20,579 bases of DNA from the IMG/VR virus record IMGVR_UViG_3300025437_000083, positions 1-20,579 of that record; one strand, 5' to 3'. How positions within the stretch are numbered: the stretch's first letter is position 1; each line of letters begins with the position of its first letter. A program made the translations under genes and the position numbers. Under the pieces are notes generated by a model. That model was not told the DNA's origin, did no database searches, and saw only the letters and a list, made by a program, of their open reading frames with translations. This document shows, in pieces, positions 1,670-15,185 of the stretch. The DNA is from a virus.

Positions 1670-1996
1670 TCAGCCAGGACTAAAGCTACTACCGCAACCA
1701 CAAGTGGTCTGAGCATTGGGATTATCAATTACAAAACTACTACCGTGTAGGTCTTCTCGGTAATTTACTGTGGCCCCTGTAAGATACTGGCCACTCATTG
1801 AATCTACTAGAACTTTGACTCCGTCAAATTCAAGATTCCAGTCATCATCGTTAGCTACTTCATCAAATGTAAATCCATATTGCATACCGCTACACCCGCC
1901 ACCTTGTACAAAAACACGCAACTTTAATTCAGGATTGCCTTCTTCGGCAATGAGTTCTTGAAGCTTACTAGTAGCAGATTCTGTCAGTGTCATCAT
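1670..1996 (-). CDS. erpA: A-type iron-sulfur cluster carrier, ErpA-like
   Basis: The 108-residue protein matches the ErpA/IscA/HesB family along its full length. [15 protein letters not shown] holds the first cluster ligand, C35, and the C-terminal TTCGCGSSF gives C99 and C101; all three conserved cysteines are present. The wording ([26 protein letters not shown]) is closer to proteobacterial ErpA than to IscA or SufA. ErpA proteins accept [2Fe-2S] or [4Fe-4S] clusters from the Isc or Suf scaffold and pass them to client enzymes. The chosen ATG at 1996 overlaps the stop of the superoxide dismutase gene (ATGA). A longer form from TTG at 2011 is possible but less likely. A carrier without any scaffold nearby suggests it tops up host cluster delivery for phage or host enzymes, which is inference. 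Confidence 0.9.
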
Positions 1997-2535
1997 AGTC
2001 TTTCGTTGCAAACGTCCCAGTTAATAATTTTCCAAATGTTATCTAAATAACGTTCTTTATCCCATTGATAGTCAAGGCTCCAGGCATGCTCCCACCAATC
2101 AACAAGCACACATATATCTGTACGCACTGCATGGTTAGGTATGGTTTTGATAGTGCCGTTGGTACTCAAATATACCCACCCTGATCCTTGAATTTTCATC
2201 GCCGTTTCTTTAAACGCAATTTTAAAGTCTTCATAGGTCTTAAAATTTTCTTCTATCAAGGCCAACACTGCTCCTCGGGGACGGTTGGCACCTTTGGGTG
2301 CGTGTAATTGAGGGAAGAACTTGTTGTGTAAAAAACTACCAGCACGATTAAAATCTGGATTGCCTTCACCTGCATTGTATTTTTTAGCGTATCCCTTGGC
2401 CAAATGTTCAAAATGGTAATTGATAGTCTCTTTACTCATCACTGGTTCCAAGGCCTTTTCTGAATAGGGCAAAGGTGTAGTTTCCAGTTTGGCTGGTCGG
2501 GTAGAAGCTTCTACTAGATTAATTATTTCGCGCAT
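1993..2535 (-). CDS. Iron/manganese superoxide dismutase, divergent viral type
   Basis: The 180-residue product has the order of Fe/Mn-[24 protein letters not shown] (first ligand H41, gateway-type Y49), [13 protein letters not shown] (second ligand H70), GSGWVYL, and [11 protein letters not shown] with D146 and H150. The enzyme family converts superoxide to peroxide and oxygen. Two places differ from E. coli SodB: the second-shell His is replaced (H44 L45 where SodB has K H), and the FN-to-His stretch is one residue shorter. The protein is also shorter than typical SODs because a loop after Y49 is trimmed. The ATG at 2535 follows the previous stop by eight bases; an upstream ATG at 2580 would add 15 residues encoded inside the SGNH gene. 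Ends in an ATGA overlap with the ErpA gene. Metal choice cannot be read here. Confidence 0.85.
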
Positions 2536-2540
2536 ATGAA

Positions 2541-2548
2541 TATTTATA
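2541..2548 (-). promoter_or_regulatory. TATAAATA octamer just before the SOD start
   Basis: A perfect match to the T4 late-promoter core lies on the minus strand five bases before the SOD ATG, overlapping the last codons and stop of the upstream gene. Transcription from it would begin near or at the ATG, giving a nearly leaderless message. The region is AT-rich, so chance occurrence is possible. Confidence 0.25.
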
Positions 2549-3248
2549 TATTTAATGCTTTTGCATACTGATCCTGCCATAGCACAGATGCTGCAACATG
2601 TGCATCATCTAAAGGGTGCAATCCTGGGTCAGTTACTGCAAAGCCTTTTTGTTTGGACCAATCTAGAAAATTTTTTTCTTCAAACAACTGCATATTTGGA
2701 TAAATTAATTTTTGTAATTCATTAATGTAATCAGGCGTGAGTGCACTGTGTTTGCAGTCCATATCAAACATGTCGTAGTCCATGTATGTTTGTATACTAG
2801 TTATATTTTTTTCTTTTAAATATGATTGAGCTGCACATATAGTTTGCAAATTTCTGAACTTATTCCATAATATACTAGAATTAACTCGTGTGGAGTAAAA
2901 ATCAATCATGCCAATGGCCTGTGTTCGGCTTACAAGATTGTGTAATAATTCTGGTACACATGTAGGACCCAATGTGATCCACGTTTTGTGATCAACAATG
3001 TAACAATCCCACCGACTTGTCCAAGTCCAATTTATTACCGCCAATGTGTCTTTATGTGTGTTTGACGAAAACCAAGAATAAATTTGTTGTGCAATATAGT
3101 CGTTGCCGCATCCAGGTTTAGCATTACAATGATATTCGTAACCTAAATTTTTTGCAATTCTTCCAGGCCATCCCAATGAGCCATTGTTGTTGTTTTTTTG
3201 CTCTGATCCATAAAGAAAGCTATCACCAAAACCGACTATTTTTTTCAT
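2544..3248 (-). CDS. SGNH-like hydrolase-fold protein
   Basis: The 234-residue protein has the sequence blocks of the SGNH/GDSL fold: GFGDSF at residues 6-11 (nucleophile Ser10), GCGND at 46-50 (oxyanion Gly/Asn) and a C-terminal DDAH (214-217) in the place of the catalytic Asp-His pair. SGNH enzymes are esterases, lipases or O-acetyl esterases; in phages such proteins are common but mostly untested, and could act on O-acetylated surface sugars or on virion assembly. No signal peptide or membrane segment is seen. The gene starts at ATG 3248, sharing one base with the stop of IF-1 (TAATG), so its translation is probably coupled to IF-1. A second, unrelated-looking SGNH-type gene lies at 7744-8727. 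Confidence 0.65.
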   Translation of the reverse strand: MKKIVGFGDSFLYGSEQKNNNNGSLGWPGRIAKNLGYEYHCNAKPGCGNDYIAQQIYSWFSSNTHKDTLAVINWTWTSRWDCYIVDHKTWITLGPTCVPELLHNLVSRTQAIGMIDFYSTRVNSSILWNKFRNLQTICAAQSYLKEKNITSIQTYMDYDMFDMDCKHSALTPDYINELQKLIYPNMQLFEEKNFLDWSKQKGFAVTDPGLHPLDDAHVAASVLWQDQYAKALNI

Positions 3249-3466
3249 TATCGACGCCTTACTATGCGTCCACGAGTTAAATCGTAAGGACTAAATTCCA
3301 TTTCCACTGTGTCGCCGGCTAGCACTTTGATATTATTTTGACGCATGCGACCATTCAATGTGGCCAATACAGGTGATTCAAAATTTGATATTTTAATTCT
3401 ATATGTGGTGTTGCGTAAAACTTCTACTACTACGCCTTCCATTTTTATCACATCTTCTTTACTCAA
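3248..3466 (-). CDS. infA: Translation initiation factor IF-1
   Basis: The 72-residue product is the length of bacterial IF-1 and aligns end to end: SKEDVIKMEG at the start, NGRMRQNNIKVLAGD in the middle and SPYDLTRGRI at the end, the hallmark of the family's single S1/OB-fold. IF-1 binds the 30S A-site and, with IF-2 and IF-3, sets initiation fidelity and speed. The start is TTG at 3466, because the following SKED residues match the bacterial N-terminus; the next ATG would remove them. It overlaps the upstream gene by eight bases (TTGAGTAA) and has no strong Shine-Dalgarno, so it probably depends on coupling. A translation factor is rare in phages; the gene looks intact. It may bias host ribosomes towards phage messages (inference). 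Confidence 0.92.
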   Translation of the reverse strand: MSKEDVIKMEGVVVEVLRNTTYRIKISNFESPVLATLNGRMRQNNIKVLAGDTVEMEFSPYDLTRGRIVRRR

Positions 3467-3818
3467 TTGTGACCGCTATCTTTCGTAATCTGTCCCACCT
3501 AAAACTACGCCAACCATTGGCGTTGCAATCCCAAACTATACACGTTTCTTTTTTGTCTATAAGTTCTGGTTTATCTGTGGCTAGTTTATTTACCGGTTTG
3601 GCACCCAGTGATTCGTTTAACGTGCAGGTCATTGATCTATAAGACCCGTCGGCCTTGGTAAATTCAACTTGCAATTGAGTTTCTTTTAGTACACTGTACA
3701 TCCAATCTCGGAGTGCTTGTTGATCTGCTTCGTCGGCTTCTTGGTACCAGTTGCCTTTTTCACTTTGTAGCAACCGCCAAGTTTCATTTTTGTTAAATAC
3801 ATCTAGGTCAAATGTCAT
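3459..3818 (-). CDS. SH3-barrel protein resembling the phage WYL_2 family
   Basis: The 119-residue protein has a C-terminal half (residues 48-119) with the pattern VEFTKADGSYRSMTCTLN, a variable middle, then TCIVWDCNANGWRSFRWD. This fits the small Sm-like SH3 beta-barrel family (WYL_2/DUF2693) common in T4-like phages, where it is usually annotated without a function and is suspected to bind nucleic acid. The N-terminal half is acidic and Trp-rich with no known pattern. It starts with an ATGA overlap on the preceding gene and ends in an eight-base overlap with IF-1, so the three genes form one translational chain. Family assignment is from memory of the motif. Confidence 0.55.
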   Translation of the reverse strand: MTFDLDVFNKNETWRLLQSEKGNWYQEADEADQQALRDWMYSVLKETQLQVEFTKADGSYRSMTCTLNESLGAKPVNKLATDKPELIDKKETCIVWDCNANGWRSFRWDRLRKIAVTIE

Positions 3819-4207
3819 CGTCTCATCCTTGAAATATCAATGGCTTCTTCGTCAGAAAAAACAGGAACTGCATTTGACTTGTGCATGGTAGCAATGCCCT
3901 TGACCTTGGTACCTGTGTAAACCTTAGCCGGGGCCAGTGTAGCGACACCTGCACCAGAATTCAAACTGGGAATATGACGGGTATTACCACGTCCTACAGG
4001 CGCACTAAGTTTATATGTCAACGGCTCTGCTTTGAGCGCCCGGCTGCGTTTACGATCTTCTGCTTCAACACCTTGTGCTCGGAGCAATTTCTGCCAAGAC
4101 TCTTCTAGTTCGCGAGCCCGACGTGCTTCGGCGGCATTTCGGAATTTTGTTTTGCCTTTGCGCTTGCCGTTTAAATTGAGCCAAGGGCCTTCTAAATGCA
4201 TAGTCAT
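3815..4207 (-). CDS. Conserved phage protein of unknown function, basic
   Basis: The 130-residue protein is strongly basic in its first half (GKRKGKTKFRNAAEARRARE), suggesting nucleic-acid or ribosome contact. Its second half has KVYTGTKVKGIATMHKSNAV followed by PVFSDEEAIDISRMRR. This ending looks familiar from uncharacterised proteins of aquatic caudoviruses, but no function is known to me. ATG at 4207 is used; a second ATG lies two codons on. It is the first gene behind the perfect promoter at 4239-4267, and thus heads the chain that leads to the SH3-barrel protein, IF-1, SGNH, SOD and ErpA genes. Confidence 0.6.
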   Translation of the reverse strand: MTMHLEGPWLNLNGKRKGKTKFRNAAEARRARELEESWQKLLRAQGVEAEDRKRSRALKAEPLTYKLSAPVGRGNTRHIPSLNSGAGVATLAPAKVYTGTKVKGIATMHKSNAVPVFSDEEAIDISRMRR

Positions 4208-4238: not shown

Positions 4239-4267
4239 ATTATAGCAAATACACAATTATATGTCAA
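4239..4267 (-). promoter_or_regulatory. Perfect sigma-70 promoter ahead of the IF-1/SOD/ErpA gene chain
   Basis: Minus strand: -35 TTGACA (4267-4262), 17-base spacer, -10 TATAAT (4244-4239), preceded by GG as in the other promoters of this window. Predicted start is near 4232, giving a leader of about 25 bases before ATG 4207. The spacer differs from the CAAAATGCC type found in the 11-14 kb cluster. Confidence 0.8.
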
Positions 4268-14178: not shown

Positions 14179-14207
14179 ATTATAGCAAATTGGGCATTTT
14201 GGGTCAA
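14179..14207 (-). promoter_or_regulatory. Cassette promoter before the GIY-YIG gene
   Basis: TTGACC (14207-14202), 17-base spacer CAAAATGCCCAATTTGC, TATAAT (14184-14179). The predicted start falls at or next to the ATG (14172). A seven-base stem-loop (14217-14234) and a terminator lie directly upstream. Confidence 0.75.
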
Positions 14208-14708: not shown

Positions 14709-15185
14709 TTAAATTACTGGAAAAGTTATTGAATCCAATTTTTGTTGATATGCTTCTGCGTGTCGCTTTTCAATTTTTGTCAAGGCTGCAAAACGTTTTT
14801 CTGCTTTCTTCAAGATTGCAGCAAATTGTTCAGCATGCTCTTTGGATTCCTCAATTTGATGTTTGGCTTCGTGTGCAGCTTTTAGCTCGCCTTCGCGTAG
14901 GGCAAATTGTTCAAATTCAGGATACATTTCAGTGAACTCATAAGTTTCACCTTCAATGGCTTTTTCCAAACATTCTCGAGTGGTTGGTTTGCCTATCAAC
15001 AATTCCAGGTGTCCCCAGGCATGCATGAGTTCTTGATCAGCAGTGTGCTCAAAGTGTTGGGCAATATCTTCGTGACCTTCGGCCCGAGCTAGTTTTGCAA
15101 AGTAACGATATTTGGTATGAGCTTGTGACTCGCCAGCAAATGCTTTTTCTAAACTTACAATTGTGACTGATTTATTATTTGCCAT
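14709..15185 (-). CDS. Rubrerythrin (di-iron peroxidase) without rubredoxin domain
   Basis: The 158-residue protein is a ferritin-like four-helix domain with the rubrerythrin di-iron ligands: E19 in AGESQAHTKY, E52-x-x-H55 in DQELMH, GETYEFTEMY (E80/E83) and a last ExxxH (E113, H117). Rubrerythrins reduce hydrogen peroxide with electrons from rubredoxin. The usual C-terminal rubredoxin domain is missing and replaced by a charged helix; the rubredoxin is encoded by the next gene instead. ATG 15185 has AAAGGAG upstream and a promoter-like site at 15209-15237. With the SOD at 1993-2535 the phage encodes both superoxide removal and removal of the peroxide formed. Confidence 0.9.
   Translation of the reverse strand: MANNKSVTIVSLEKAFAGESQAHTKYRYFAKLARAEGHEDIAQHFEHTADQELMHAWGHLELLIGKPTTRECLEKAIEGETYEFTEMYPEFEQFALREGELKAAHEAKHQIEESKEHAEQFAAILKKAEKRFAALTKIEKRHAEAYQQKLDSITFPVI

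Follow-up and report, generated by a model that had tools for sequence, protein, structure and literature searches.

As judged from sequence comparisons, the window, that is the whole stretch of 20,579 nucleotides analysed (IMG/VR virus record IMGVR_UViG_3300025437_000083), carries an intact gene for translation initiation factor IF-1 (infA), which is lodged in a phage operon, begins at a weak start codon and is accompanied by a recognizable promoter anatomy. The weak start of infA, set against the ATG starts of its neighbours, suggests that the dose of the factor may be controlled at the very step where IF-1 acts. That the gene of an initiation factor should repeatedly have a weak start, in a near-pure ATG background, offers a direct handle on whether phages set the dose of such a factor at the factor's own step. 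Also at stake is a possible remodelling of host 30S initiation by phage IF-1 and ribosomal protein S21.

The phage IF-1 and its lineage

The infA gene spans 3248..3466 on the minus strand, the strand being missing from the first-pass annotation, whose claim of a full-length IF-1 of 72 residues is borne out by two profiles. The protein matches TIGR00008, the NCBIfam equivalog for infA, at 9.4e-26 and 89.6 bits (cut-off 61.15), with an alignment covering profile positions 1-68 of 69, hence full-length, and PF01176 (Pfam eIF-1a) with 66.3 bits (cut-off 30.2). In PHROGs the gene falls into phrog_30201, labelled there as of unknown function. The AlphaFold model (pLDDT 91.2) is a single OB fold, and compares to E. 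coli IF1 in the 30S-IF1-IF3 complex (9fco_I) with rmsd 1.0 Å and TMq 0.93. The phage protein is akin to bacterial IF-1 (TIGR00008/PF01176) in length, OB fold and conserved residues, among which G11, G38, M40, R41, I45, G50, D51, V53, E56, SPYD, GRI and R70 are retained according to the column table and the alignment; the C-terminal end reads ...SPYDLTRGRIVRRR. It differs from bacterial IF-1 at position 44 (E. coli numbering), where Y/F is mostly replaced by N/D, at position 69, where Y/F is replaced by R, in the 28-29 loop, which has one extra residue, F, and in the usually non-ATG start. The N/D and R residues at 44 and 69 may alter binding. PADLOC returned no defence match for infA, and a weak WYL match only for a neighbour gene; a defence role for infA was rejected on this basis.

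On comparative grounds, the gene codes for a true IF-1, and the phages that carry it form a lineage of jumbo T4-like phages. Relatives of the window protein, at most 97% identical to it, reside in viral contigs, and make up 236 non-identical loci; the nearest bacterial IF-1 in the genome collection is at most 60% identical. In the protein tree 92 phage sequences group with one sequence from a bacterial MAG (support 0.97), and the group of the window (32/33) has a support of 0.92; the deeper branches are unreliable, because the protein has 72 residues. By sequence, the phage IF-1 clade is separate from bacterial IF-1. Bacterial infA lies in a secY-adk-infA-rpsM context, and the phage gene is found outside it. 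The usual order in the window clade (55 loci) is phrog_27048, with or without WYL_2, infA, SOD-ErpA, with cell-wall hydrolase and tail-fibre-like genes nearby, and the T4-type capsid gene gp23 was found in four relatives of 200-340 kb. A phrog_27048 gene neighbours infA in nearly all 55 loci. When loci were anchored on phrog_27048 instead of IF-1, 72 had room, and among these infA lies at most 4 kb downstream in 40, and is absent in 32, and is thus common, but not strictly required there. The window yielded no tRNA gene, and no close isolate was found.

The conserved phage gene order and the hundreds of relatives in viral contigs exclude contamination. A host or chimeric contig was rejected on the synteny in 55 loci and the phage clade in the tree, and the phylogeny proposed at the outset as a check on a chromosomal origin gave the same answer. 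The accompanying remark that phages seldom carry initiation factors does not hold, since IF-1 occurs in hundreds of viral contigs, and has been published: as excerpts of the article indicate, the IF1 of huge phages was proposed to redirect host translation (Al-Shayeb 2020, PMC7162821), so that the bare observation is not new. Likewise, in the excerpted text of PMC12363816 a "translation initiation factor 1A" is listed as a core gene of Jug-phages. These IF1 proteins are phage-encoded as well, and in the same excerpts S21 is reported among the huge-phage genes; the excerpts of both articles make no mention of start codons, promoters or leaderless forms, and offer no hint as to the expression of the gene or the reason for a limit on it. 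A record filed as Acinetobacter phage MD-2021a (L166) has infA near truA and leuB, and resembles a host chromosome. IF-1 records labelled as "Listeria", "Enterococcus", "Staphylococcus" or "Acinetobacter phage" were left out of the phage evidence, and these matches were rejected, as the annotated one inspected looks bacterial and the others are unannotated.

The start codon of infA and its surroundings

The first-pass annotation had infA start at TTG, and this assignment stands (3464..3466, minus strand). The in-frame space upstream of TTG amounts to three codons, none of which is a start codon, and in 42 non-ATG relatives pN/pS is 0.19 for codons 2-8 vs 0.17 for codons 9-72. Purifying selection thus acts on codons 2-8 just as on the remainder of the gene; they are therefore translated, which makes TTG the true start. 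An internal start at Met9, a residue conserved as ATG, was rejected because codons 2-8 are selected, and because Shine-Dalgarno (SD) sequences precede TTG or ATT, not Met9.

In the 55 loci of the window clade infA starts with TTG in 37 cases, ATG in 12, ATT in 3, ATC and ATA in 1 each, and is unclear in 1. The neighbour genes of the same loci (15 sense-strand families, n=374) start with ATG in 369 cases, GTG in 4 and TTG in 1. Non-ATG starts thus mark 42 of 54 infA copies vs 5 of 374 neighbours (Fisher p 1.5e-41, kinship ignored), a contrast which is strong but not exact, since the background was obtained by picking, for each family, the column richest in start codons, and this procedure can miss weak starts; applied to infA itself, it chose Met9. 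In three neighbour families checked, apparent non-ATG starts were mostly adjacent to an ATG or alignment outliers. Changes of start class on the infA gene tree number 14 by parsimony, and phage IF-1 clades other than that of the window have mostly ATG. In a bacterial sample (n=39, from one phylum plus named plasmid and chromid copies) infA starts with ATG in 35 cases. Many infA genes in Bipolaricaulota-like bacterial loci (L084-L160) have a TTG start behind a GGAGG-like SD; weak infA starts are hence not confined to phages. The cultured Sinorhizobium phage Phosso (469 kb) has an annotated infA with TTG at the aligned start, the protein being 52.9% identical to that of the window and the neighbourhood different.

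It had been claimed that several phage messages use TTG or GTG, and that a phage IF-1 could favour them. Codon usage lends no support to either idea: SOD starts at ATG 2535, ErpA at about ATG 1993, and the odd start is mainly that of infA itself. A TTG/GTG preference among the other messages of the phage was rejected, given the ATG background.

The context of the start differs among infA copies. An SD of at least 5 bases stands 4-7 nt before the start in each of the five ATT/ATC/ATA copies, and also occurs in 17 of the 37 TTG copies, where its distance is always 10-12 nt; the median distance in neighbour genes is 5 nt. The SD of the window infA is weak. Its start overlaps by 8 nt the upstream gene (3459..3818, minus strand), which encodes a WYL_2/Sm-like fold protein (PF10902, 1.8e-11; phrog_1086). 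Since the SD is weak and the start lies inside the upstream gene, translational coupling may dominate. At the other end, infA meets the downstream gene at a TAATG junction, with the downstream ATG at 3248; the coupled arrangement described earlier on both sides is indeed present. The downstream gene (2544..3248, minus strand) encodes a protein with a GDS motif, SGNH hydrolase-like as judged by eye, which had no match in Pfam, and whose family occurs in about 11 loci of the 55-locus clade.

Promoters and predicted modes of expression

An extended sigma-70 promoter, TTGACA-17-TATAAT, matching at 12 of 12 positions, lies at 4239..4267 on the minus strand, and is the predicted driver of phrog_27048, WYL_2 and infA. 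The first gene of the operon is phrog_27048 (3815..4207, minus strand; 4.9e-27), whose function is unknown. Of 52 loci, 35 have a sigma-70 promoter scoring 11-12 of 12, which in most cases precedes phrog_27048 by some 60 nt. A perfect sigma-70 promoter at the head of the operon predicts early expression. Sigma-70-like TTGAC-N18-TATAAT repeats recur on the minus strand of the window at 14207, 13853, 12014, 11728, 11383, 10322 and 4267. They are similar to one another, reside upstream of small genes and, when translated, themselves yield recurring "VDPKCPICYN" ORF stretches.

A different signal precedes the Fe/Mn superoxide dismutase gene (1993..2535, minus strand, from ATG 2535; PF02777 1.1e-21, PF00081). 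The T4-late-type promoter TATAAATA (2541..2548, minus strand) is located 5 nt before the SOD ATG, and the message is predicted to be leaderless; the spacing between T4 late promoters and the transcription start is the basis of this prediction. In relatives a late-type promoter is arranged likewise before SOD. The same motif distinguishes the infA copies. In the window clade, it ends 5-6 nt before the infA start in 10 of 12 ATG copies vs none of 42 non-ATG copies (p 2.8e-9, kinship ignored); across all clades, 47 of 148 ATG copies have it vs none of 68 non-ATG copies, kinship again ignored. In E. coli leaderless mRNAs largely require AUG (PMC9031893), so that the association between ATG and the late promoter is the one to be expected if expression were leaderless. 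Most ATG-type infA copies of the clade are accordingly predicted to be expressed as leaderless mRNAs from a late promoter, while the operon-type copies keep TTG or ATT/ATC/ATA. SOD is followed by a gene for an ErpA-type iron-sulfur insertion protein (1670..1993, minus strand, start at about ATG 1993; NF010147, 169.5 bits). SOD and ErpA (1670-2535), together with a rubrerythrin (14709-15185), are redox/iron genes carried by the phage.

Proposed role and competing explanations

We consider it probable, although far from settled, that the gene provides a functional IF-1 which is made early and in limited dose, and whose target is the host 30S subunit. The conserved positions, the fold match and the S21 genes of most relatives make a role at this subunit plausible. 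S21 has been identified in 13 of 19 relatives' records, IF3 in none of 20, a distribution which fits a 30S-directed role; an IF3 companion was rejected on the latter count. According to the proposed model, early in infection the sigma-70 operon would supply a limited extra dose of IF-1. Bound at the A site on host 30S subunits, this IF-1 would, together with the phage S21 that most relatives have, tune initiation and the cycling of subunits in favour of phage mRNAs. The weak infA start would cap the dose, possibly with feedback, because the stringency of initiation, exerted by IF1 and host IF3, acts at that codon.

Autoregulation through the weak start, in the manner of infC, is plausible by analogy. 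Tentatively, IF-1 and host IF3 might sense stringency through the TTG/ATT/ATC/ATA start of infA, making the early dose self-limiting, and sister lineages might escape by way of a leaderless ATG mRNA from the late promoter. As cited in the excerpted text of PMC9845219, the AUU start of infC, the gene for IF3, serves autocontrol (Butler 1987), and in plastid infA, which starts with UUG, translation rose about 300-fold once this codon was made AUG (Hirose 1999). Plastid infA is the same gene with the same weak start, but belongs to an organelle, and the excerpt shows low translation and no further regulation for it; infC is an initiation-factor gene with a rare conserved start, and a few phage infA use ATT/ATC/ATA, but infC encodes IF3, not IF1. 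Under infC-type autoregulation, relatives should share a rare start codon more often than the background does, and infA agrees with this. Such autoregulation also predicts a start discriminated by IF3, and here the window and most relatives have TTG, ATT/ATC/ATA being found in 5 of 55 loci. TTG counts as canonical in this respect, since AUG, GUG and UUG are not discriminated by IF3 (PMC4611024). The ATT/ATC/ATA copies are thus better candidates for an IF3-type feedback than those with TTG, that of the window included, and simple dose limitation stays a serious rival.

In its simplest form, dose limitation means that the weak start keeps IF-1 at a low, constant level, excess being harmful or unneeded, with no feedback involved. 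This is a possibility to be taken seriously, if short of an even chance. A non-ATG start and a distant SD each lower initiation, the lack of discrimination of TTG by IF3 is in line with it, and the overlap with the upstream gene leaves room for coupling in the window. However, ATG with a poor SD would suffice for the purpose, as in other genes, and ATT/ATC/ATA, codons familiar chiefly from infC, appear repeatedly behind a good SD. In an open-access literature search no paper on the start codon of phage infA was retrieved, and the manner in which infA starts, among neighbours starting with ATG, seems to be the new element.

In vitro, IF1 enhances the translation of leaderless messages (PMC9031893). 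The phage IF-1 may accordingly serve putative leaderless late mRNAs of the phage, IF1 stimulating both leaderless and 70S-scanning initiation, and late-type promoters lying 4-7 nt ahead of a number of ATGs in these phages. In keeping with this, 222 sampled ORFs of relatives gave 15 instances of the late-type motif at 4-8 nt from a candidate ATG, and SOD and ATG-type infA bear it as well, but the prediction of leaderlessness is drawn from motif spacing alone, and most phage genes have no such motif; the explanation is unlikely. Quite improbable is a host shut-off in which the protein, as a modified IF-1, would take the place of the host factor and thereby block or skew initiation in the host. 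The changes at 44 and 69, the extra F in the 28-29 loop and the early promoter could be so read, but strongly conserved positions are kept under strong purifying selection, as fits a working factor, and phage mRNAs depend on the same ribosomes.

RNA chaperone and antitermination activities have also been described for IF1. The phage protein might on that account have its function away from the ribosome, where its OB fold would serve RNA chaperoning or transcription antitermination, but conservation of the whole IF-1 signature, and the S21 of relatives, which points to the 30S subunit, make this very unlikely. An artefact is hardly credible: some public "phage" IF-1 records do look bacterial, with infA between truA and leuB, and Met9 is a conserved ATG, but the gene order shared by 55 loci, the distance from bacterial IF-1, the selection on codons 2-8 and the placement of the SD all speak against a host or chimeric contig, or a start at Met9.

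Other translation genes of these phages may have weak starts too, as one hint suggests. S21 starts with GTG or TTG in 4 of the 13 genes read (L433, L434, L565 and L568), above the ATG-dominated background.
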